A stretch of 38,413 nucleotides of DNA from the NCBI GenBank assembly GCA_009697815.1, contig WLRQ01000022.1, positions 1-38,413 of the forward strand, given 5' to 3'. The notes under the pieces were generated by a model, which worked only from the letters and a program-made list of their open reading frames with translations, was not told the origin of the DNA and made no database searches. This stretch comes from Actinomycetota bacterium. GTDB taxonomy: Bacteria > Actinomycetota > Actinomycetes > S36-B12 > CAIYMF01. How positions within the stretch are numbered: position 1 is the stretch's first letter; the number at the start of each line of letters is the position of its first letter. Positions 3,151 through 35,247 of this stretch are shown piece after piece. The position numbers and the translations under genes are program-made.

Positions 3151-3948
3151 TCAGGGGTCCTCGAGCACATCGTGCGCGGGGGCCGGCCCCACATCGGTTC
3201 GCGCGGTGGTGTCGCCGTACACCCGCTCGCGACGGACGAGCAGCACGAATCCAGCGACGGCGATCGCGGCGAAGATGATCCACTGCATGGCGTACGAGAG
3301 ATGAGGGCCGTTATCGAGTGCGGGCAGCGAGCGGATCGTCAGTCCGCTGTCCTGTGCTGGTTCGGAGGCCACAAGCGTGACGAAGCCGGGGTAATGAGTT
3401 GCCGTCCCGGCCACAAGCTCGACGTTGAGATCAGTGATCTGACCGGTCGGAAGGTCTGTGGGCTGGATCGTCGGCGCGGCTTCCGACGGTTGGATCCGTC
3501 CCGTCAGGGTGACCGTTCCGCTCGGCGGAGCCGGGATCACCTGTGCCGACGTGGCACCGCCCGTGGCTGCGATCCACCCACGGTCGACCACAAGCACGAC
3601 GCCGGCGCTGGTGACGAACGGAGTGGCCACCCAGAAGCCATTGGCGCCCTGGTAGGGCCGCTTCCGCACGATGCGTTCGCCAGCGACATCGAAATGTCCC
3701 TCGGCCGAGACCATCCGCCACCGCTGCGCATCAGTCACCGAATCGGAAGCTGCACCTGGCGTCATCAATTCATCAACGGCAACCGATGCCGCCCCGCCGT
3801 TGGTCCTGATGACGTCGTTGCTATGTTCCCGGTCGCCCAGACGCGTGAGCTGCCAGCGCGAGAGTAGAAAGAAGGACGGGACCACCAAGAGCACCAGAAA
3901 CCCCAGCGCGAGCCATCGTGGCTGTGCGAGAAACCGGTAACCCCTCAT
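3151..3948 (-). CDS. SURF1 family protein (cytochrome c oxidase assembly)
   Basis: A 265-residue membrane protein with the SURF1 layout: an N-terminal helix (about residues 13-31, after the R-F-L-A-Q-P-R-W lead typical of actinobacterial SURF1), a large external domain, and a second helix (about 220-238) followed by a basic and then acidic tail. SURF1 proteins assist heme a insertion and assembly of aa3-type cytochrome c oxidase, so an aerobic respiratory chain is implied. The ATG is at 3946-3948, with a TACGGT -10 hexamer 6 nt upstream and no clear Shine-Dalgarno sequence, which suggests leaderless translation. It stands alone between the SDR and the ABM protein. Confidence 0.88.
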   Translation of the reverse strand: MRGYRFLAQPRWLALGFLVLLVVPSFFLLSRWQLTRLGDREHSNDVIRTNGGAASVAVDELMTPGAASDSVTDAQRWRMVSAEGHFDVAGERIVRKRPYQGANGFWVATPFVTSAGVVLVVDRGWIAATGGATSAQVIPAPPSGTVTLTGRIQPSEAAPTIQPTDLPTGQITDLNVELVAGTATHYPGFVTLVASEPAQDSGLTIRSLPALDNGPHLSYAMQWIIFAAIAVAGFVLLVRRERVYGDTTARTDVGPAPAHDVLEDP

Positions 3949-12421: not shown

Positions 12422-13216
12422 CTACCGATGCCGCACGTGCCGTTCGGGTTCCGGCTCCGCCTCAGCCGAGTACGCGGCACAGAGGGCGTAGCGCGCCGCG
12501 GCGCGAAGCGGACGCAAGGCCTGTAGGCGCCTTTCGGCCTCGTTCGCGGTGATCGCCCCTCCCTCGGACTCCACCGCGATCGCGAGCACGCCCAGCAACC
12601 GGGTCGCGCTCGCGATCAGACGCTGCGCCCGTCCCGGCAGCGAAGGCGGGAGGTCGAGTGCCCGCAGTTCACGGTCGAGAGATGCCAACCTCGACGTGAT
12701 GTCGCCGCTGCCCCGGGCAACGTCGAGTGCTGCCATCGTCGCTGCCGTCTCCGCCACCATCTCCGTCAGCGCGCGATCGGCCTCGGACAACGTCGGCAAT
12801 CCATAGGGTGGAAACGACATGTTCGCCTCGACGACATCCCACCGCACCACCGCACCCTGGGGGAGTTCGACAACCGTGGGCAGGAGGGCACACGCACCTT
12901 GCTGCAGCGGGGCGATCGTCACGATCACCGCGCCAGCCACGAGGGCGGAAGCGCTGAGCGCGGCCGGCCCTGGCAAGCCGGTGAGATCACCCGCCTCAGG
13001 TAGCACGAGGCGTAACGCCGTCACCCCCTGGGCGCGCAACCGACCGAGCGCGACCGCCAGAGAGACCGGCTCACCTTCCAGGGGGACACCCACGACTCGG
13101 TGCAGCGGGTCGGTTCCCACAGACCCCGCAACTGCGTCATCGAGGCTCGATCCGCCACCCAGATAGGAATTGCCCCAGCAGGTGAGAGCGCCCGCGCGAC
13201 GAAGTGAGCTGGCCAC
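12422..13216 (-). CDS. Conserved actinobacterial protein of unknown function upstream of serB
   Basis: A 264-residue soluble protein. I recognise the type as one seen beside serB in other actinobacteria, but it has no assigned function. The first half is alpha/beta with a V-T-A-L-R-L-V-L-P-E-A-G-D-x-x-G-L-P-G-P signature; the second half is helical and leucine/alanine-rich. The frame is open to 13273, but GTG at 13214-13216 is preferred because a TAGGTT hexamer lies exactly 7 nt upstream on the minus strand, giving a leaderless start. It is in an operon with serB and divergent from the ABC ATPase gene 167 bp away. Confidence 0.7.
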   Translation of the reverse strand: MASSLRRAGALTCWGNSYLGGGSSLDDAVAGSVGTDPLHRVVGVPLEGEPVSLAVALGRLRAQGVTALRLVLPEAGDLTGLPGPAALSASALVAGAVIVTIAPLQQGACALLPTVVELPQGAVVRWDVVEANMSFPPYGLPTLSEADRALTEMVAETAATMAALDVARGSGDITSRLASLDRELRALDLPPSLPGRAQRLIASATRLLGVLAIAVESEGGAITANEAERRLQALRPLRAAARYALCAAYSAEAEPEPERHVRHR

Positions 13217-13223
13217 AGAATCC

Positions 13224-13229
13224 AACCTA
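13224..13229 (-). promoter_or_regulatory. -10 hexamer of a leaderless promoter for the unknown gene/serB operon
   Basis: Minus-strand TAGGTT, 7 nt, then GTG (13214-13216). This fixes the start of the downstream gene; no Shine-Dalgarno sequence is present. Confidence 0.5.
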
Positions 13230-13370
13230 TGCCGTGAGGCCGCGTGGAGTCGGGCCGGACCGGCACCGCACACTCGCGAGATCGCGCTGCCATGTCACCC
13301 AGTCTGAGTCGGAGCGAACGACACAGGGGTCTACGCCTTGTGGGTGGCACCAGAATCGACCCTGGATGGC

Positions 13371-25064: not shown

Positions 25065-25487
25065 TCAGCCGGGCACGACAACGGTGCCGACCGCAGTGGT
25101 GACCACGATCGGATCGTCGAGAAACCGTGAGGAGGAATCGCTCACCTCCGGTGTCGCACGAGCAACAACCCGGGCCTCGAAGGACACCGAGCGGGAGCGG
25201 GTGCCGATGCGAGTCAAGGTTGCCGTCGCCTCGATGACGTCACCAGCCCTGACGGGAGCGCAAAACTCGACGCTGTCGTAGCTGGCAAACAGGCCCTCGT
25301 CGCCATCACTCCTGATGCACAACTCCGTCGCGACATCTCCGAACATGGCGAGCACATAGGCCCCGTCCACGAGATGTCCCCCGTAGTGCGCGTGCGCGTA
25401 GGACACGTATCTGCGCTGCGTGACCGACAGGCCCAGTGGCGGATCCACCCGTGGCCCGGCCCCGACGGGCTTCCCGCTCAAACTCAT
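25065..25487 (-). CDS. kal: 3-aminobutyryl-CoA ammonia-lyase (Kal), hotdog fold
   Basis: A 140-residue hotdog-fold protein. The conserved block R-R-Y-V-S-Y-A-H-A-H-Y-G-G-H-L-V-D-G-A-Y (about residues 25-44), then F-G-D-V-A-T-E-L and S-V-E-F-C-A-P-V-R-A-G-D-V-I-E, matches Kal of lysine-fermenting bacteria. It eliminates ammonia from L-3-aminobutyryl-CoA to give crotonyl-CoA. Its ATG overlaps the kamE stop (ATGA, 25484-25487). Last gene of the operon. On fold alone it could be another MaoC/hotdog enzyme, but the context makes Kal the best call. Confidence 0.88.
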   Translation of the reverse strand: MSLSGKPVGAGPRVDPPLGLSVTQRRYVSYAHAHYGGHLVDGAYVLAMFGDVATELCIRSDGDEGLFASYDSVEFCAPVRAGDVIEATATLTRIGTRSRSVSFEARVVARATPEVSDSSSRFLDDPIVVTTAVGTVVVPG

Positions 25488-26251
25488 CGCGACTCTCCGC
25501 TCGTTCCCGCCGCCGTGACCAGCGCGTGCACTAGATATGAAGCGACGTCGCCCGGTGTCGTCCCTCTGCCGAAGATCCGGTCCACCCCGAGTTGGGCTGA
25601 CATCGTCTCATCGAACCGTGGGCCACCCAGGACGAGAAGAGGACGAGTGTGGTCGGGGAACGCCTCACGGAACGCAGCGCTCATCTCTCTGGCGTTGTGC
25701 AGGTGCGCATCGCGTTGGGACACCACTTGGGAGACGAGCACCGCGTCGGCGCCCGTCCCGATCGCGTGTGCGACAAGATCGGGCACCGAAACCTGCGCCC
25801 CGAGATTGACCGCGACAATCTCCGAGTAGTACTCGAGACCCTTCTCGCCCGCGAATCCCTTGATATTGAGGATCGCGTCGATACCAACAGTGTGCGCATC
25901 CGTGCCAATGCACGCGCCGACCACGACCATGGGACGTCGAAGGCCCTTCTTGATTGCAGCGTTCACTTCCTTCGACGAGAGCAATGGGTAGCCTCGCTCG
26001 ACCACGACAACCTCATCCGTGTTGACGACATGCTGCACGGATCCATACACGATGAAGAAGGTGAACTCGGGGCCGATCGCCTTCGCGTGGACGACCATCG
26101 CGGGCTCCATGCCCATCTTCTTCGCGAGCAGGAGTGCGGCTCCCTCGGCCCGCTTGTCATGAGCCAGTGGCAACGTAAACGAGACCTGCACCATGCCGTC
26201 ATCCGACGTGTCGCCGTAGGGCCTGATGACTGTGCCGGCGTCGCCGGTCAT
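25484..26251 (-). CDS. kamE: Lysine 5,6-aminomutase beta subunit (B12- and PLP-binding)
   Basis: A 255-residue KamE. After an N-terminal dimerisation part (F-T-L-P-L-A-H-D-K-R-A-E-G-A-A), a Rossmann B12-binding domain begins near residue 105. The cobalt-ligand motif is D-A-H120-x-x-G, and Lys131 in N-I-K-G lies 11 residues later, the same spacing as His133/Lys144 (cobalt ligand/PLP Schiff base) of the Clostridium sticklandii enzyme. The subunit therefore looks fully functional. With KamD it moves the terminal amino group of beta-lysine to C5, yielding 3,5-diaminohexanoate. Start and stop overlap kamD and kal by ATGA on both sides. Confidence 0.95.
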   Translation of the reverse strand: MTGDAGTVIRPYGDTSDDGMVQVSFTLPLAHDKRAEGAALLLAKKMGMEPAMVVHAKAIGPEFTFFIVYGSVQHVVNTDEVVVVERGYPLLSSKEVNAAIKKGLRRPMVVVGACIGTDAHTVGIDAILNIKGFAGEKGLEYYSEIVAVNLGAQVSVPDLVAHAIGTGADAVLVSQVVSQRDAHLHNAREMSAAFREAFPDHTRPLLVLGGPRFDETMSAQLGVDRIFGRGTTPGDVASYLVHALVTAAGTSGESR

Positions 26252-27828
26252 CGCGAGGCACCCTTCTCGAGAAAAGCGTTGGCAGGGTTGACGTAACCGG
26301 GCGCTTTGAGAAAGACACCATCACGCCCGCGCCCCGAGTCGGCGGGCCGCTTCATCAGCCCGAAAGTCCCTTGTGCGATTGCCTCGAGCAGTGTGTCGTC
26401 AGCAATCCTCTCGAGGAGCGCGACGGACTCCGCGAGCACATGTCGCGCCCGAGTGGCGATGAAGCCGTCCGAGGCAGCGTGGAAGTCTTGATGCAGTTTG
26501 CCCGCGGCCTTGAAGACATAGCGCACGTTCTCCAGAGCGAGGTCTCTGTCGGACAGCCACGGGGTGGCGACAGCCTCGGTCATCATTCCCACCAAAACGA
26601 TGCCCTGGCCCGTGAGCGCACCTGCCAGATTGAAGAACCCATTCAGCAGGTACCCACGGAAGATATCCCCGGTCATGTGCTTCGTCGGCGGCATCCACTT
26701 CAGCGGAGCGTCAGGGAACAAAGCCCGCGCGAGCATGGCGTGGGCGAGCTCGAGCCGAAAGGAGTCCGGCACCTCGGGGTCGATTTCGAACGCGTGCCCG
26801 AGGCCGAGTTGCCAGTCCTCGAGCCCGGCCTCCTTGGCGAAGTACTCGTTGAGCAACTGACTGACCGTGACCGTGTGTGCGGCTTCGACGGCGTCGGCGG
26901 TAGTGAGGTAGTTGTCCTCGCCCGTGTTGATGATGATTCCGGCCCGCGCATGGATCTGCCGACTGAAACGCTGGTCGATGAAGGTGCGGACTGGATTGAT
27001 GTCGCGAAAAAGGATCCCGTACATCGAGTCATTGAGCATCATGTCAAGGCGCTCAAGGCCTGCGAGCACGGCGATCTCGGGCATGCACAGTCCGGACGCG
27101 TAATTGGTGAGCCGCACGTAACGTCCGAGTTCCTTGCTCGTCTCGTCGAGGGCCGCTCTCATCAGGGCGAAGTTCGCCTGGGTCGCGTAGGTGCCTGCGT
27201 AGCCCTCCCGGGTCTCACCCTCGGGGACATAGTCGAGCAGAGACTGACCCGTGGAACGGATCACCGCTATGACGTCGGCACCGGCCCTCGCGGCCGCCTG
27301 GGCTTGGGGTATGTCCTCATGGATATCCCCGGTGGCAACAATGAGATAGATCCACGGGGTGGCTGGATTGCCGTACTTCGCTATCGAGCGATCACGGGAC
27401 GCCCTGTTGGCGTCGATCCGAGCGAATCCCTTTGCCACAGAAGCGATCGACGCTTCCGAAGCCTTGACCGCGGACGCACCTGTGGGGATGCGGAAAGTAA
27501 CCGACCCGGACGCAGCCTTCTGTGCCAGCGTGTGGAGGTCCTCCCCTGTAGCGAGCAGGGCATCCCACACCGGCAGCGCAACACCGTGCTCAAGGCCAGT
27601 CTGCTCGCGCACAGCATCGACCAGCCGATTGACCCATGGGATCCCGTCTACGTCGGCGCCCTCGAGCCCGGCAAGCCGCAGCACAGCGCGCTCAACGGAG
27701 ATCGTCGTGTGACGCTTCGCCATCTTGACCACCGGAGCGCCCGACTTGGCCGCGAGAACGCGCGCCTTTCTCACCATGCGTGTCTCGAGACGGAGCATCG
27801 GACGGGGGTCAGTTCTCGAGCCACTCAC
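26248..27828 (-). CDS. kamD: Lysine 5,6-aminomutase alpha subunit
   Basis: A 526-residue KamD of usual length, a TIM-barrel subunit. Recognisable blocks: R-H-T-T-I-S-V-E-R-A-V-L-R-L-A-G near the start, Y-L-I-V-A-T-G-D-I-H-E-D-I-P-Q-A, T-Y-A-T-Q-A-N-F-A-L-M-R, I-I-I-N-T-G-E-D-N-Y-L-T-T, and K-W-M-P-P-T-K-H-M-T-G-D-I-F. It holds adenosylcobalamin-dependent radical chemistry together with KamE. The start is GTG at 27826-27828, overlapping the amidohydrolase stop (GTGA), so translation is coupled to the upstream gene. No MutL/MutS-like reactivase gene for this mutase is visible nearby. Confidence 0.95.
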   Translation of the reverse strand: MSGSRTDPRPMLRLETRMVRKARVLAAKSGAPVVKMAKRHTTISVERAVLRLAGLEGADVDGIPWVNRLVDAVREQTGLEHGVALPVWDALLATGEDLHTLAQKAASGSVTFRIPTGASAVKASEASIASVAKGFARIDANRASRDRSIAKYGNPATPWIYLIVATGDIHEDIPQAQAAARAGADVIAVIRSTGQSLLDYVPEGETREGYAGTYATQANFALMRAALDETSKELGRYVRLTNYASGLCMPEIAVLAGLERLDMMLNDSMYGILFRDINPVRTFIDQRFSRQIHARAGIIINTGEDNYLTTADAVEAAHTVTVSQLLNEYFAKEAGLEDWQLGLGHAFEIDPEVPDSFRLELAHAMLARALFPDAPLKWMPPTKHMTGDIFRGYLLNGFFNLAGALTGQGIVLVGMMTEAVATPWLSDRDLALENVRYVFKAAGKLHQDFHAASDGFIATRARHVLAESVALLERIADDTLLEAIAQGTFGLMKRPADSGRGRDGVFLKAPGYVNPANAFLEKGASR

Positions 27829-29393
27829 GAGGCCACCTCATGGATATCGTCTGCCCAATACAGGCGAGATCCATTTCGGACAGTACCCATACACGACGGC
27901 GAGTAATCACCAATCAGGGTCGGCCAGCGCGTCGCCGTGTCGAAATCATCCCTATGCCAGACGGCGAAAGTCGCCGTCGCCCCAACGGCCAGCACTCCGG
28001 ACGAAGTATCACCAACTACACCAAAACCCGCGCGCGTGTGAGCATCGAATGCCGTCCGCACGTCGATGGCGTGGGCGGGCGTGCGATGGCCCACCGCGGC
28101 GCGGATACTCCCCCACGGATCCATCGCCGTCACAGGTGAGTCCGAACCCAGGACGAGCTCGACCTGGGATGCGACAAGTGCCGCGAACGGATTGAGTTCG
28201 GCTCCGCGGTCGAGCCCAAGCCGATCGGCGTACATTCCCGATGTGCCTCCCCAGGCCGCATCGAACGCGGGCTGGACCGAGGCGATCACACCGAGATCGG
28301 CGAGCACTGCGATCTGTGCGGCGTCGATCATTTCGACGTGCTCGAGCCGATGACGCAATGCGCGCATCCGCTGCGCGCCCACACTGTCTTCGGCCGCCCT
28401 AAGCGCACGCACCACCACGTCCATCGCCGCATCGCCGATTACGTGAAAGCCAGAGGGGACGCCCACCTCAGAGCAGCGGACCAGATGATCGACGCAGGAG
28501 TCGTGGTCAAGGTACAACGCTCCGCGCGACGTCGGCTGGTCGGCGTAAGGCGAACGAAGACAGGCCGTTCGGGAGCCAAGGGCCCCATCGACGAACAGAT
28601 CCCCGCCCGCACCATGGGCACCAAGTTCGCGCACCATCTCCAGCCCGCCCGTCGCCGCGTGCTGTCCCCAGTAGAGGACGACGTCCGGCAGGGCCGGATC
28701 AGCGGAAAGTGCCATGAGGCCGGCCGCGTCGTCCGCGCTCGAGATGTCGGGGCCAGCCATCTCGTGGACAACGGCGACGCCCTTCGAGGCGGCATGTCGC
28801 AACATGGCGCTCTGCGCTTCGGTCCGCTGAGACGGAGTGATCAACCGCAGAGCCGCACCACGGACCGCGTGATGTGCGTCCATAGACACGATCCCACTCG
28901 CGTCGAAGCCTCTCAAGGTCTCTACCCTCGGGACCGATGCCAGAAGTGCTCCGCTGACCAGTGCCGAATGCGCATCGACGCGGGCGAGGTACACCACTGA
29001 ACCGAATGACGCGCGATCCAAATCGGCCGAGGTCGGCAGTTCCTTCACGACCCAACTGGATTCATCCCACCCGTGGCCGAGGATTGGTCGGCCCCGGAGC
29101 TCACGGGTTCGGCTCGACACGGCCGCAAGGACATCGGCCTTGGATCTCGCCGATGAGAGGTCGAGGCCCGTCAGCGCGAGCCCCGTGTCTGTAGCGTGCA
29201 CATGACCATCGACGAATGCCGGAAGTACCACGGCCCCTTCGAGATACACGGTTCGTTCTACCGGCGGTGCGCTTGCGACAGCACCGATCCACGTGATGAC
29301 ACCGTCCACGTAGACCAGAGCCACATCGTCGAAGGAGCCGGTGTTCGCATCTCCGAGGAGGACCCTGCCCCCCGTGATCAGGGTGGCGCTCAT
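27825..29393 (-). CDS. Amidohydrolase family protein (YtcJ-like, amidohydrolase_3) inside the lysine operon
   Basis: A 522-residue metal-dependent hydrolase. It has a short N-terminal composite-domain strand (L-I-T-G-G-R-V-L), the V-D-G-H-V-H metal motif (about residue 60), F-V-D-G-A-L-G-S-R-T-A, G-F-H-V-I-G-D-A-A and R-H-R-L-E-H-V-E, as in YtcJ proteins, and the final Asp in V-L-G-S-D-S-P-V. Such enzymes open amide, lactam or N-acyl bonds; the substrate here is unknown. It follows kdd by 7 bp and overlaps kamD, so it is an integral operon member. ATG at 29391-29393 is chosen; an in-frame GTG at 29417 would overlap kdd. Confidence 0.85.
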   Translation of the reverse strand: MSATLITGGRVLLGDANTGSFDDVALVYVDGVITWIGAVASAPPVERTVYLEGAVVLPAFVDGHVHATDTGLALTGLDLSSARSKADVLAAVSSRTRELRGRPILGHGWDESSWVVKELPTSADLDRASFGSVVYLARVDAHSALVSGALLASVPRVETLRGFDASGIVSMDAHHAVRGAALRLITPSQRTEAQSAMLRHAASKGVAVVHEMAGPDISSADDAAGLMALSADPALPDVVLYWGQHAATGGLEMVRELGAHGAGGDLFVDGALGSRTACLRSPYADQPTSRGALYLDHDSCVDHLVRCSEVGVPSGFHVIGDAAMDVVVRALRAAEDSVGAQRMRALRHRLEHVEMIDAAQIAVLADLGVIASVQPAFDAAWGGTSGMYADRLGLDRGAELNPFAALVASQVELVLGSDSPVTAMDPWGSIRAAVGHRTPAHAIDVRTAFDAHTRAGFGVVGDTSSGVLAVGATATFAVWHRDDFDTATRWPTLIGDYSPSCMGTVRNGSRLYWADDIHEVAS

Positions 29394-29400
29394 GTAAGGC

Positions 29401-30471
29401 TCACAGGTGACCGTCACTGACGAGCCGCTCGTGATAGAGCTGCTCCACTCCGGGCTCGGTTCGCAGCAGGTCGAAAGCCATCTCGGCGTGGCCCGGCGTG
29501 AAGCCGTTCCCGATCAGCATGGTGACATCGGCCGCGAGACCCTCAGCGCCGAGCGCGGCGGCCGCAAACGAGGTCGACATCGAGAAAAAGATCACCGTGC
29601 CGCCATCACCCGTGGACAGGATCGCCCCATGCTCACATCCCGGAACGTCGACACACACGACGACGATGTCGGCGGGAGCGCCCAGCGCTGACGCGATGGC
29701 ATCCGATAGAGCGACTGGGTCGCGGGCATCGGCGAGCGTGACGATGTCAGCCAGCCCCACCCGTATCAGAAGTTCGGCCTCATGATCAACGGGCACCACC
29801 CCGACGGTTCGCGACGCCCCAGCCCGACGCGCAGCGGCCAGGGAGAGCGATCCGCTCTTGCCCGCCCCTCCGATGACCGCGACGGTCGGCGGATGCCCTT
29901 GGTGAACGTAGCGTGCAACAACACGTGCGGTCAGAGCTGGGGCGCCGCACACATCCATCACCGCCATCGCGAGTGGCCCCGCGAGGTCAAGGGGAAGCCG
30001 GGCCACGATAGTGCGGTCGAACAGGATTGCGTGCCCGTCGCATGGGACCTGTTCACTGCGCCCATCCCACTCACGCAAGCCGTCTTCGATCACGAGGGGT
30101 GTCAGTGTGAGGGAGACCAAGGTTGCGATGTGGTCGCCAACGGTGAGGTCATGGTGCGCGCTCTCAGGTCCTATCTCTTCGACAACGCCCACGAGCATTC
30201 CACCGGAACCGGTGACAGGGTTGTGCATCTTGCCGCGTGTGGCCACGATCTCGAGGACCTCGGCGCGGACTGAGTCGCCGTTTCCACGGTGCTTGTCCCA
30301 CAGCTGACGGAAGCTCGCGGCATCAAGATTGAGCCGAGAGACCCGCACGCGGATCTCGCCGGAGTTCAACTCTGGGCTCGCGTCGAGCCGCCACGCCGCT
30401 TGTGGCAGAACTCCCGAGGGCTCGAGGACGCGGTGAAGCCCCACGGGGCTGACGCGATGACGTGTCGTCAC
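29401..30471 (-). CDS. kdd: L-erythro-3,5-diaminohexanoate dehydrogenase (Kdd)
   Basis: A 356-residue MDR-like NAD(P)-dependent dehydrogenase with the Kdd opening R-V-S-P-x-G-L-H-R-V-L-E-P...L-P-Q-A-A-W-R-L-D, an N-terminal GroES-like domain (V-G-V-V-E-E-I-G-P...V-G-D-H-I-A) and a Rossmann domain with V-A-V-I-G-G-A-G-K-S-G near residue 205. It oxidatively deaminates 3,5-diaminohexanoate to 3-keto-5-aminohexanoate. The frame is open to an ATG at 30519, but GTG at 30469-30471 is preferred because AAGGAGGGA lies exactly 9 nt upstream. First gene of the minus-strand lysine operon. Confidence 0.92.
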   Translation of the reverse strand: MTTRHRVSPVGLHRVLEPSGVLPQAAWRLDASPELNSGEIRVRVSRLNLDAASFRQLWDKHRGNGDSVRAEVLEIVATRGKMHNPVTGSGGMLVGVVEEIGPESAHHDLTVGDHIATLVSLTLTPLVIEDGLREWDGRSEQVPCDGHAILFDRTIVARLPLDLAGPLAMAVMDVCGAPALTARVVARYVHQGHPPTVAVIGGAGKSGSLSLAAARRAGASRTVGVVPVDHEAELLIRVGLADIVTLADARDPVALSDAIASALGAPADIVVVCVDVPGCEHGAILSTGDGGTVIFFSMSTSFAAAALGAEGLAADVTMLIGNGFTPGHAEMAFDLLRTEPGVEQLYHERLVSDGHL

Positions 30472-30742
30472 ACCGATGTATCCCTCCTTGATCAGTCCAC
30501 CTTGCCGCAGCGGTGACATCCATGGCTAGCCCGCGAGGTCCCCGCGTGGCGACACCTCCACCAAACAGGGCGCCCGCGAGTGCGCCCGCTCACGTGACAC
30601 TGCACATTATGGGTAACTGCGGGCGCTGTGCCGAAGATTCTTCACCTTTATTGCTCTTAGAAACAAATATCTGCGGTAGCGTGCCAATCGGTGCACCCCC
30701 AAGGGCGGCCATCGCCAACGCCGACAGCAACCGGAGGATCCG
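30472..30742. promoter_or_regulatory. Divergent control region kdd operon / kamA
   Basis: This 271-bp region contains no gene I can support. It holds the strong kdd Shine-Dalgarno sequence (30481-30489, minus sense), a GC-poor stretch at about 30630-30685 unlike its surroundings, the palindrome GAAGA-T-TCTTC (30633-30643), and a TAGCGT hexamer (30677-30682) that can be the kamA -10 box. Candidate binding ground for the Lrp-type regulator encoded beyond kamA. Confidence 0.5.
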
Positions 30743-32194
30743 GTGACCAAGACCTTCGAGACCCTCGCGTCCGCAGCGAGCACGTCCGCGTCGCAGTCCC
30801 TTGAGCAGCCCTACACCTACGCCAGTCGGCCACTGGTCGAACCGGACTGGCGCCGCTTCCCGGGCTGGTCGCACCTCACCGATGCCGAGTGGCGGTCGGC
30901 CCAATGGCAGAGATCCCACTGCCTGAAATCAACTGCCCAACTTCGAGCCATTCTCGGGGACCTCGTCGACGATCACTTCTTCCATGACCTCGAGGCCGAC
31001 ATCACTGCCACCGCCACCATGTCGATGCTGCTCCCACCCCAGATGCTGAACACGATCGCCGCGACCACGCCGGTTGGCGGCACCGGGTCGCTCACCGAGG
31101 CGTTCTACCAAGACCCGGTGCGTCGATACATGCTGCCTGTGTTCAGCGACAGGCGAACCGACCTCACAAGTCACCCCCACGCCACCCGGGACTCGCTGCA
31201 CGAGCATGAGATGTGGGCTGTCGAGGGTCTCACCCACCGTTACCCGACGAAAGTTCTCGCCGAGTTGCTCACCACCTGCCCGCAGTATTGCGGGCACTGC
31301 ACTCGGATGGACCTGGTCGGTAATTCCACTGCGTCAGTCGAGAAGCTGAAGTTCATCGCCAAGCCCGAGACTCGACTCTCGGACATGCTCGACTACCTCA
31401 GGCGCTCCCCCGGAGTCCGCGACGTAGTCGTATCAGGGGGCGATGTCGCCAACATGCCCTGGCCCCGCCTCGAGTCGTTCGTCGCATCACTGTTGGAGAT
31501 CGAGAACATCCGCGACATCCGGTTGGCCTCGAAGGCATTGATGGGCCTGCCACAGCACTGGCTTCAGGACGACGTCCGATCCGGAATGGAACGACTCGCA
31601 AGGATCGCTCGTGCCCGAGGGGTCGGACTCGCTATCCACACCCACGTGAACGCAGCCCAATCCGTGACGCCTTTGGTGGCCGAAGCTACCAAGGCGATGT
31701 TCGAGTGCGGCGTCCGCGACGTGCGCAACCAGGGAGTTCTCATGCGCGGGGTCAACGACTCCGCCGGCGCGCTGCTGGATCTGTGTTTCGCGCTGCTCGA
31801 TGGCGCAGGGATCATGCCGTACTACTTCTACATGTGCGACATGATTCCGAACGCCGAACACTGGCGGCTTGGGCTTTGGGAAGCCCAAGCGTTGCAGCAC
31901 TCGATCATGGGCTATCTACCCGGATTCGCGACCCCCCGCATCGTCTGCGACGTGCCGTATGTCGGAAAGCGATGGGTGCACCAGGTCCACGACTACGACC
32001 GCGAACGCGGGATCAGCTACTGGACCAAGAACTATCGAACCGGCATCGAGATGAGCGACGTAGACGCCCTCCTACGCCCACACGAGTACTACGACCCCAT
32101 CCACACGTTGCCAGAAGCGGGTAAGGCGTGGTGGGCGCTGCACGGCAACGACTCGCTCTCACAGCCGGTGGCCGGTCGCGAGGTCCATGACTGA
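30743..32194 (+). CDS. kamA: Lysine 2,3-aminomutase family radical SAM enzyme
   Basis: A 483-residue radical SAM aminomutase. The 4Fe-4S motif is C179-x3-C183-x2-C186 in T-T-C-P-Q-Y-C-G-H-C-T-R; S-G-G-D follows in the SAM-binding barrel. Asp366 (M-C-D) and Asp403 (V-C-D-V-P) are 37 apart, as are the substrate-binding Asp293/Asp330 of the Clostridium enzyme, so alpha-lysine is the likely substrate. The PLP lysine is best placed at Lys409 in P-Y-V-G-K, replacing the usual P-G-G-G-G-K and one residue shorter. CGGAGGA lies about 7 nt before the GTG start. It is divergent from the kdd operon and makes the beta-lysine used by KamDE. Confidence 0.92.
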   Translation: MTKTFETLASAASTSASQSLEQPYTYASRPLVEPDWRRFPGWSHLTDAEWRSAQWQRSHCLKSTAQLRAILGDLVDDHFFHDLEADITATATMSMLLPPQMLNTIAATTPVGGTGSLTEAFYQDPVRRYMLPVFSDRRTDLTSHPHATRDSLHEHEMWAVEGLTHRYPTKVLAELLTTCPQYCGHCTRMDLVGNSTASVEKLKFIAKPETRLSDMLDYLRRSPGVRDVVVSGGDVANMPWPRLESFVASLLEIENIRDIRLASKALMGLPQHWLQDDVRSGMERLARIARARGVGLAIHTHVNAAQSVTPLVAEATKAMFECGVRDVRNQGVLMRGVNDSAGALLDLCFALLDGAGIMPYYFYMCDMIPNAEHWRLGLWEAQALQHSIMGYLPGFATPRIVCDVPYVGKRWVHQVHDYDRERGISYWTKNYRTGIEMSDVDALLRPHEYYDPIHTLPEAGKAWWALHGNDSLSQPVAGREVHD

Positions 32195-32197
32195 GCC

Positions 32198-32212
32198 GGG
32201 CCGCGTAGGCCC
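32198..32212. terminator. Short GC hairpin between kamA and the Lrp gene
   Basis: GGGCC, 5-nt loop, GGCCC, starting 3 bp after the kamA stop in the 27-bp gap between convergent stops. No T-tract. Weak but well placed for both transcripts. Confidence 0.3.
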
Positions 32213-32221
32213 CGACGTCGA

Positions 32222-32662
32222 CTAGATACTCGGCGGCCGGTTCTCATATGCGGTCGAGAGGACGACGCTGGTGCGCGTCGAGACATTGGCCTTGGCGCGG
32301 ATCTCGGCCAGCAACTGCTCGAGCGCCGCAGGATTGGCTACGCGAACCTTGAGAACATACGACTCGTCGCCGGCAACCGAGTGGCAGGCCTCGATCGCCG
32401 TGATCCCCTCCAGGCGCCCGGGAGCATCATCGGGCGAGGCCGGGTCGATGGGCTTGATCGAGATCAGTGCCGTCAATGGGAGTCCCAACGCATCGTGGTC
32501 GACAATCACCGTGTAGCCCTTGATCACGCCGCGCTGCTCGAGGCGCCGCACCCTCTGGTGCACGGCCGAGGTCGAGAGCCCGGTGGACTTCCCGAGGTCG
32601 GTATAGGACATCCGACCGTCCCCGGCTAGCAGCCGCACGATCGCCTGGTCGATCTCCTCCAC
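32222..32662 (-). CDS. Lrp/AsnC family transcriptional regulator
   Basis: A 146-residue Lrp-type regulator: a winged HTH (E-E-I-D-Q-A-I-V-R-L-L through L-S-T-S-A-V-H-Q-R-V-R-R-L-E, residues 1-45), the hinge V-I-K-G-Y-T-V-I-V-D, and a C-terminal RAM ligand-binding domain with the G-D-E-S-Y-V-L-K-V-R strand. Such proteins sense amino acids; here lysine or a pathway intermediate is the natural guess. The frame opens at a TTG (32680), but GTG at 32660-32662 has AGAAGG 9 nt upstream. A TAACTT hexamer at 32708-32713 (minus sense) may be its -10 box. It is convergent with kamA. Confidence 0.9.
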   Translation of the reverse strand: MEEIDQAIVRLLAGDGRMSYTDLGKSTGLSTSAVHQRVRRLEQRGVIKGYTVIVDHDALGLPLTALISIKPIDPASPDDAPGRLEGITAIEACHSVAGDESYVLKVRVANPAALEQLLAEIRAKANVSTRTSVVLSTAYENRPPSI

Positions 32663-32756
32663 CGCGCTCACCCTTCTCAACCACGACGAGCATTGGCGAT
32701 CTCACACAAGTTATCCCACGTCCGCCGCGAGGACGGGACGCGCCACCGGGAAGCGA

Positions 32757-34068: not shown

Positions 34069-35247
34069 ATGCCGGTTCCACTGCCAGAGCCCGACGCAAT
34101 CCTTCCTCCGCCCGCCGACAATGAGGGCTTCGAGATCGCCCGGGCGCTGGTGACCGCGATGCAGGGCCCTGAAGGACTCACCGACCTCCAGTACCACGTG
34201 ATGAGCGCCCACACGGTGGCTATGAGCGGCACCCACATCAACCCCGACTTCATCGAACCTATGTACCCCGAAGAATTCGGGGAACTCATGCGTTATCGCA
34301 CCGGGGATTTCCGGGTGCGCATGATCCAGGTGATGTTGCTCGGTGCGTTCATCCTCAACCCACTTCCAGCCGAGATCGTCGAGCGCATCGCTGACTACGC
34401 TCGCGAGGCCTCGGTCGACGACGACATGATCCAGGTGGCGATGCACGAGGCCCAGGGCGCACGTGGTCAGGTCATGGCCGATTTCGCCCGCGCCGGCTAC
34501 CACGACCACCTCGACATCGATCACAGCGAGGGTGCCCGGCCCGACGTCGCCGTTCCTGACCACTGGGCATCGGTCGAGGATGACCCCGAGCTCGCGGGCC
34601 GATGGGCGGCCATGGAGCACCTTCCACCGAACACACTGGGCCGCCAAGTGTGGCAGTTCTACACCTCGCGCGGATTCCACTTCCCTGGCAGCCCAGGCAG
34701 CGCCTCGCCCTACCTCGCCCAGCACGACTGGGTGCACGTCATCGCCGACTACGGATCCACCATCGAGTCCGAAATCGAAATTTTCGGGCTGATCTCGCGG
34801 GCCAATGACGACTCCACCGCGTTCTCTCTGCTGGCCATGGTGCTGAGCCTGTTCGAGACCGGCAACCTGGAGGCCGTCGCGATCTTCGAGCAGGACCAGG
34901 GCAACCTGTCGAGGAACTCCCGCAAGATGGGCGTTCGCCTCGCTGACGCGATGTATCGCGGCGCCATCATCGGTGCGAGATTCGGCGGCGAGGATCTCAT
35001 GGAGGTTGATTGGCTCTCACTCGCCGACCGTGACGTCGATGAGATCCGCGCCATGCTGGGTATCCCCGCGAAATCACCTATCGCGTTGCGCGCAGGATCA
35101 GTCAGCCCCTGGGAATCGGGCGGTATCAGCCCGTTCCAGATGAACGCGGGTCAAGAGCTGGCCGCCCTCCAGGGCCGGCAGTACGACAGCTACGGCGGCG
35201 ACCTCGTGCAGCAACTCACCGCGACCGTGGTCTCTGAGATCTCCTGA
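34069..35247 (+). CDS. Coq4-like metal-motif protein with helical N-terminal domain
   Basis: A 392-residue soluble protein. Residues about 185-300 resemble Coq4: L-P-P-N-T-L-G-R-Q-V-W-Q-F, then Q-H219-D-W-V-H223-V-I-A-D-Y-G and Glu235, an exact HDxxH-x11-E zinc motif. The N-terminal 160 residues are helical and acidic and recall TerB/DjlA-type domains, although I cannot confirm that. Coq4 is a ubiquinone-pathway protein in eukaryotes and proteobacteria, whereas actinobacteria normally make menaquinone, so the role is open. GAGGAC precedes the ATG. It is 4 bp upstream of the exonuclease gene and divergent from the M24 peptidase. Confidence 0.7.
   Translation: MPVPLPEPDAILPPPADNEGFEIARALVTAMQGPEGLTDLQYHVMSAHTVAMSGTHINPDFIEPMYPEEFGELMRYRTGDFRVRMIQVMLLGAFILNPLPAEIVERIADYAREASVDDDMIQVAMHEAQGARGQVMADFARAGYHDHLDIDHSEGARPDVAVPDHWASVEDDPELAGRWAAMEHLPPNTLGRQVWQFYTSRGFHFPGSPGSASPYLAQHDWVHVIADYGSTIESEIEIFGLISRANDDSTAFSLLAMVLSLFETGNLEAVAIFEQDQGNLSRNSRKMGVRLADAMYRGAIIGARFGGEDLMEVDWLSLADRDVDEIRAMLGIPAKSPIALRAGSVSPWESGGISPFQMNAGQELAALQGRQYDSYGGDLVQQLTATVVSEIS

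Follow-up and report, generated by a model that had tools for sequence, protein, structure and literature searches.

A conserved beta-lysine pathway cluster in Actinomycetota points to a probable aerobic lysine-to-crotonyl-CoA route using clostridial fermentation chemistry

We analysed a 38,413-nucleotide stretch of DNA (the window; contig WLRQ01000022.1 of assembly GCA_009697815.1, here contig C28) from the 2.66 Mb genome of an Actinomycetota bacterium, focusing on a seven-gene cluster at 25065-32680 that comprises kal, kamE, kamD, an amidohydrolase gene, kdd, kamA and lrp. Every reading frame in the cluster is open and intact. Gene identity, intact residues, conservation, synteny and co-occurrence with a Kce-like gene were all observed directly, and together they make it probable that the cluster serves a vertically inherited aerobic route from lysine to crotonyl-CoA using the chemistry of clostridial lysine fermentation, with all activities predicted from sequence. 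An earlier inspection of the letters alone (the sequence-only reading) had proposed such lysine use by an oxygen-respiring organism; the beta-lysine route genes and the oxidase-bearing genome on which it relied held, but the Kce step is most likely encoded elsewhere and KamA is not of the fermenters' kind. We infer that lysine would be used as a carbon and nitrogen source.

To assign the cluster proteins, we compared them with family models and solved structures. The results showed that Kdd, KamD, KamE and Kal each scored above the curated cut-off of the corresponding NCBIfam lysine-fermentation equivalog model (Table 1). KamD matched the solved chain 1xrs_A (534 bits), the solved relatives of KamE were 9q1a, 8t0v and 1xrs_B, Kdd matched 7dl3 with 211 bits across residues 26-369, and Kal was closest to the beta-alanyl-CoA ammonia lyase 4mtu (E 7e-19). 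These matches are far beyond chance and agree with the earlier assignment of the four as predicted beta-lysine route enzymes; Kal and Kdd, whose falling in unrelated families would have refuted it, were placed in the expected ones by both profile and solved-structure searches. KamE H120 and K131, which we take to be the cobalamin ligand and the pyridoxal phosphate (PLP) lysine, were present as had been claimed, and both were invariant in 78/78 sequences. The ATGA/GTGA coupling noted before was found as 4-base overlaps at three junctions (amidohydrolase/kamD, kamD/kamE and kamE/kal), and kdd and the amidohydrolase gene overlap by 17 bases. Such minus-strand overlaps from kdd to kal are what one operon would show. 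kamA is transcribed in the opposite direction to kdd from a common intergenic region, with lrp beyond it on the opposite strand, its TTG start lying 18 bases past the boundary of 32662 given earlier.

KamA forms its own clade and is a predicted lysine 2,3-aminomutase. When it was aligned to the lysine 2,3-aminomutase 2a5h, with residue numbers counted by us on the alignment, C125, C129 and C132 of the CxxxCxxC motif, R134, D293 and D330 were all kept; we take the cysteines to hold the iron-sulphur cluster, R134 to bind the carboxylate, and D293 and D330 to bind the epsilon-amine. The motif and both substrate Asp residues are thus intact, as the sequence-only reading had stated. The loop leading to the PLP lysine is one residue shorter, reading D-V-P-Y-V-G-K409 against D-A-P-G-G-G-G followed by K337 in 2a5h, where K337 is presumably the PLP lysine. 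We then compared the clade sequences with more than 80% query coverage, after removing three loci from genomes already counted. The iron-sulphur, carboxylate, epsilon-amine and candidate PLP-lysine residues were identical in 128/128, and K409 was invariant; its spacing from the Asp is one residue less than that of the lysine in 2a5h. The predicted structure had a predicted local distance difference test score (pLDDT) of 84 and a predicted template modelling score of 0.86, and a fold search placed 2a5h first (E 7e-24, about 25% identity), the next different structure following at E 2e-4. The genome holds no KamA-family match other than the window's kamA, which gave no Pfam match at 0.001. Across a phylum sample of 396 genomes, KamA was found at E 1e-30 in 52. 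Of these, 45 were strong, their best match reaching 498 bits or more, and the 7 weak ones stayed at or below 130 bits, which leaves a clean gap. A tree of 64 chosen KamA sequences clustered by taxonomy, its 'none' labels including three loci cut by contig ends (L085, L190 and L228).

kce was not seen in the cluster gene list. A single gene in the genome matched the Kce family (BKACE); it lies on contig C22, where no lysine genes were seen beside it. Its top solved match was Kce 2y7d (205 bits vs 137 for the next), and the Glu, His, Ser and Thr positions that we take to be the Kce active site aligned between the two. We then searched for this Kce-like gene in 60 related genomes (the relatives, own genome included) and in 27 named genomes. 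Among the relatives, it was present in 17 of the 18 that carry KamD (own included), the exception being a genome 72% complete. Of the 42 relatives lacking KamD, 4 had it, 2 of these at full length (Fisher 8e-12, full-length counts). In the named genomes it reached at least 250 bits in 20/20 with KamD, while the seven without KamD gave one full-length and one weak match (Fisher 2e-5, full-length counts). Because the Kce-like gene co-occurs with KamD, Kce is most probably encoded away from the cluster and not missing. At L002:9988-11390, the Kce-like gene overlaps the next gene (186 residues, role unassigned) by 4 bases.

To assess distribution and inheritance, we examined the loci of relatives and of named genomes. 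Among the 60 relatives, KamD occurred in all 17 genomes of the family (own included) and in one genome of a second family. The 17 relatives' loci all carried kamD, kamE and kal, with kdd in 14, kamA in 12 and lrp in 11, and in each of the five without kamA the contig ends before it. lnt adjoins the cluster in 17/17, a glycosyltransferase gene in 16/17 and a 5'-3' exonuclease gene in 9/17; the exonuclease is missing from eight loci, part of them truncated at a contig end and others (L029, L031) not. The named-genome scan used kamA as bait, so that kamA is present in 80/80 of the loci considered, which are the best 80 of at least 568 confirmed relatives. By our own count 57 of them are titled Nocardioides, Actinomadura or Kribbella, and cultured strains of these three genera carry the cluster. 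Within the fetched stretch, kdd was found in 71 of the 80, kamD in 61, kamE in 56 and kal in 55, and kamA, kdd, kamD, kamE and kal occurred together in 55; an lrp homologue was present in 60 and kce in 0. The exonuclease, lnt and glycosyltransferase genes accompanied 54, 51 and 49 loci, respectively.

The cluster and its flanking genes are therefore conserved through the family and into Propionibacteriales. The distances of KamA, Kdd, KamD and KamE followed those of the exonuclease (rho 0.72-0.84), the glycosyltransferase (rho 0.64-0.78) and Lnt (rho 0.33-0.57), and in each case 0/500 permutations reached so high a value. The pathway proteins were better conserved than these three neighbours. 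Since the flanks are common to several families and the pathway distances track the flanking genes, the sequences fit long vertical inheritance in Actinomycetes under purifying selection. On the same grounds we rejected a recent horizontal import within Actinomycetes, and the earlier term 'island', in the sense of a recent import, had to be dropped; the distance correlation by itself would be compatible with transfer of the whole linked block. L120, a contig titled as a Spirochaetaceae metagenome-assembled genome, bears the entire actinobacterial-type cluster at 53-77% identity, through misbinning or transfer.

Based on these assignments, we propose the following route, in which each reaction, the aerobic fate, the regulation and the role of the amidohydrolase are predicted. 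KamA would move the alpha-amino group of lysine to C3, giving beta-lysine, and KamDE, with B12 and PLP, would move the 6-amino group to C5, giving 3,5-diaminohexanoate. Kdd would then deaminate this compound oxidatively at C3 to 3-keto-5-aminohexanoate, which the Kce-like enzyme would convert with acetyl-CoA to acetoacetate and 3-aminobutyryl-CoA. Finally, Kal would release ammonia from 3-aminobutyryl-CoA to yield crotonyl-CoA. Crotonyl-CoA and acetoacetate would enter beta-oxidation and the tricarboxylic acid cycle with oxygen as acceptor and no reduction to butyrate, and lysine is probably sensed by the Lrp-family protein. We searched the relatives for one other lysine-degrading enzyme, lysine 6-aminotransferase, and at E 1e-40 found no match in 17 of the 18 with KamD, the remaining one (G014) giving a partial 415-bit match; other lysine routes were not searched. 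As the matches in relatives without KamD (10/42) reached only 140-153 bits and 0/60 genomes passed the cut-off, this enzyme gives no contrast between the two groups.

Several results weigh against this route. KamA scored 147.9 bits against a cut-off of 525.4 for TIGR03820 (lysine 2,3-aminomutase) and 145 bits on the broader KamA family model, where 199 are required, so it passed neither and is not KamA of the fermenter type; with the cut-off missed widely and the PLP loop one residue short, its substrate is not certain. The Kce model was the best NCBIfam match of the Kce-like protein, yet the score of 260 bits lies below the cut-off of 382, and a Kce over the cut-off was found in 0/60 relatives and 0/27 named genomes. 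No transporter, CoA-transferase or acyl-CoA dehydrogenase was seen in the cluster gene list. In the phylum sample, 34 of the 45 genomes with divergent KamA, some of them incomplete, gave no KamD match; 4 of the 18 with KamD showed no match to this KamA at E 1e-30, so that the two are not strictly tied. Lastly, the radical enzymes, KamA and the B12 aminomutase, are oxygen-sensitive in clostridia; an air-tolerant KamA is known from Bacillus.

This oxygen sensitivity would suit an anaerobic or micro-oxic module like that of Clostridium and Fusobacterium, one that yields butyrate and acetate from lysine and is used only when oxygen is exhausted, and four of the enzymes do belong to fermentation equivalog families. 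We nevertheless consider such a module unlikely. The window carries SURF1 at 3151-3948, which bears out the earlier observation of the cluster alongside oxidase assembly, and a gene for haem-copper oxidase subunit I lies on a different contig of the genome. The cluster is also kept in Nocardioides, Kribbella and Actinomadura, which are aerobes. Neither butyryl-CoA dehydrogenase nor CoA-transferase is encoded in the cluster, genome-wide searches for them not having been made.

The amidohydrolase raises another alternative, in which the true substrate is beta-lysine or a conjugate (e.g. from streptothricin-like compounds or N-acyl-lysines) freed by this enzyme and degraded by Kdd, KamDE and Kal, with KamA as a side entry. 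In several lineages the gene is flanked by kdd and kamD, and in two genomes that gave no KamD match it comes directly after kamA; the enzyme may therefore work at the beta-lysine step or earlier. H72, H74, E219, H325, H360 and D426, which we take to be metal ligands, were invariant in 20/20 aligned sequences; the predicted structure (pLDDT 93) best matched the uncharacterised hydrolase 3icj. The enzyme is an optional member of the cluster, present in only 6/17 relatives' loci and in 25/80 best named loci when 40% identity is taken as the minimum (plus three distant matches, some loci being cut by contig ends), whereas kamA was present in 12/17 relatives' loci with the other 5 contig-cut. This alternative is thus improbable. 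Because the gene follows kamA in both of the routes considered here, our guess is that a substrate at or before beta-lysine is more likely than one after it. We also considered the amidohydrolase as a stand-in for Kce and rejected this, as the Kce-like gene is present in 7/7 amidohydrolase-bearing family genomes (own, G002, G003, G005, G009, G012 and G015).

We further examined where KamA occurs without KamD. True KamD was found in 18/396 phylum genomes, and three more gave matches of 142-148 bits that we read as an ornithine-type relative; of the 18, 11 carried divergent KamA, 3 a weakly matching KamA and 4 neither at E 1e-30. When 15 genomes behind named loci without a full kamD were searched, KamD was detected in 8/8 Actinomadura and 0/7 Nocardioides. 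These seven Nocardioides (L091, L096, L108, L114, L136, L145 and L147) keep divergent KamA, with an Lrp gene near it in 6/7. In family f57 (L189, L192, L218, L219 and L227), kamA adjoins a gene for a 134-residue conserved protein and there is no KamD match; in L189 and L192 it also adjoins a peptidase-like gene (judged by eye). At L177:5438-18156, in a genome of 8 Mb from the same class as the window, the genes near the divergent kamA encode a polyketide synthase of 2149 residues, an AMP-binding enzyme, an amine oxidase and a protein that by eye resembles a carrier, a hint that some secondary metabolite may contain a beta-amino-acid unit. That KamA makes beta-lysine for another end, such as an osmolyte or antibiotic, with an incidental neighbourhood, could draw on this polyketide synthase locus and on the KamA found without KamD, but is very improbable given kdd in 71 and all five genes in 55 of the best 80 named loci and a gene order that recurs in another class. 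The osmolyte role was rejected, since AblB (TIGR03827) over the cut-off was found in 0/12 genomes searched, with one weak partial match.

In family f16, which belongs to that other class, divergent KamA was present in 11/16 genomes, six of them with KamD. Five of the six KamD loci were read; each contained kamA, kdd, the amidohydrolase gene, kamD and kamE, and three contained kal. In G301 of this family, kdd lies beside kamA near a contig end. A different arrangement was found in two complete loci of f16, L222 (428-6322 and 11163-12359) and L220 (9192-16792), where kamA is accompanied by an aldehyde dehydrogenase, a class-III aminotransferase, two CoA-transferase subunits and a second class-III aminotransferase, with the amidohydrolase in between in L220. 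L223 has kamA and the aldehyde dehydrogenase before its contig ends, and the contig-cut L221 has kamA and the amidohydrolase; none of the four gave a KamD match. The two dehydrogenases and four aminotransferases matched broad families, and among the matches listed only one passes its cut-off, that of an aminotransferase which scored 554 bits on a model with a threshold of 552, the name of which does not refer to beta-lysine. A thiolase gene about 3 kb from kamA in L222, outside the operon, just missed both the PcaF (590.5 vs 597) and the subfamily (604.6 vs 605) cut-off. Resting on the two complete loci, a second exit may be sketched in which beta-lysine would pass through 3-amino-6-oxohexanoate, 3-aminoadipate and 3-oxoadipyl-CoA to succinyl-CoA and acetyl-CoA, using the aldehyde dehydrogenase, the two class-III aminotransferases, the CoA-transferase and a PcaF-type thiolase (near one locus only). 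Tentatively, divergent KamA might thus feed an aerobic hub of beta-lysine metabolism in Actinomycetota from which at least two routes lead out, and the second of these would join the beta-ketoadipate pathway.

The coordinates of the cluster are given in Table 1. The kdd/kamA intergenic region is probably a site of regulation. An Rfam search of the window gave zero matches above the gathering score, so no riboswitch was found by it. An inverted repeat, GGATA-N5-TATCC, is present at this position in some congeners, was seen in 5/79 intergenic stretches (same-genome repeats kept) and is degenerate in the window; with so few occurrences, we make no claim for it as an operator. Elsewhere in the window, a 392-residue protein (34069-35247, plus strand) and a 283-residue open frame that may not be a gene (12422-13273, minus strand) had no Pfam or NCBIfam match at the thresholds used.

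Table 1. Positions of the cluster features in the window and the matches behind their assignment.
Feature	Position	Strand	Evidence
kal, 3-aminobutyryl-CoA ammonia lyase (hot-dog fold)	25065-25487	-	NF052388, 188 bits vs cut-off 160; 4mtu
kamE, lysine 5,6-aminomutase B12-binding subunit	25484-26251	-	NF052385, 338 bits vs cut-off 280; 9q1a/8t0v/1xrs_B
kamD, lysine 5,6-aminomutase TIM-barrel subunit	26248-27828	-	NF052384, 697 bits vs cut-off 600; PF09043, 805 bits; 1xrs_A
amidohydrolase, Amidohydro_3 family	27825-29417	-	PF07969, 225 bits
kdd, L-erythro-3,5-diaminohexanoate dehydrogenase	29401-30519	-	NF052381, 260 bits vs cut-off 200; 7dl3
divergent kdd/kamA intergenic region, 223 bases	30520-30742		position between divergent genes
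kamA, distinct clade, predicted lysine 2,3-aminomutase	30743-32194	+	2a5h best by sequence and fold; below both KamA cut-offs
lrp, Lrp/AsnC-family regulator, TTG start	32222-32680	-	PF13404 and PF01037

Lysine fermentation is taught as a pathway of anaerobes, and kdd, kce and kal were reportedly assigned by Kreimeyer in 2007. Among the matches listed in open-licence literature, no paper was found, by title or start of abstract, on the pathway in aerobic actinobacteria, a prior mention in Kreimeyer 2007 being possible. If the proposed route is correct, a pathway that textbooks present as fermentation may also be in common use for consuming lysine aerobically, and in Nanopelagicales lysine would be an added source of carbon and nitrogen; the loci without KamD suggest a possible second way of degrading beta-lysine. 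Because the cluster is conserved in genera of aerobes that are partly cultured, the working of oxygen-sensitive radical aminomutases in aerobic growth is testable in ordinary strains. The KamA clade itself lies beyond the reach of the curated annotation models used here.

Compared with known systems, AblA/AblB, which makes the osmolyte N-epsilon-acetyl-beta-lysine, likewise starts with a KamA-type aminomutase, and the window's group differs from it in the AblB result given above. The window KamA shares with the Clostridium subterminale lysine 2,3-aminomutase 2a5h its fold and its iron-sulphur, carboxylate and epsilon-amine residues, and differs in its low identity, its shorter PLP loop and a score below the family cut-off. 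In the passages shown of one account, lysine 5,6-aminomutase is counted among B12 enzymes and actinobacterial hosts are not named (PMC2667541), and the main text of another never uses the word 'aerobic' (PMC3149608). The Cloacamonas variant, in which the aminotransferase Kat acts on 3-aminobutyryl-CoA (PMC3149608), has the same first steps, whereas the window has a Kal that passes its model and its cluster lacks an aminotransferase gene (no genome-wide search for Kat was made). The amidohydrolase appears in none of the pathway versions found described in the passages available. The closest counterpart in gene content is the kamA/kamDE/kdd/kce/kal lysine fermentation of Fusobacterium nucleatum and Clostridium sticklandii (PMC3149608), with the same predicted reactions and with four equivalog families in common (those of Kdd, KamD, KamE and Kal); the window differs from it in having another KamA clade, an unlinked Kce-like gene, an added amidohydrolase, an Lrp gene beside the cluster, a terminal oxidase and a cluster free of butyrate genes.

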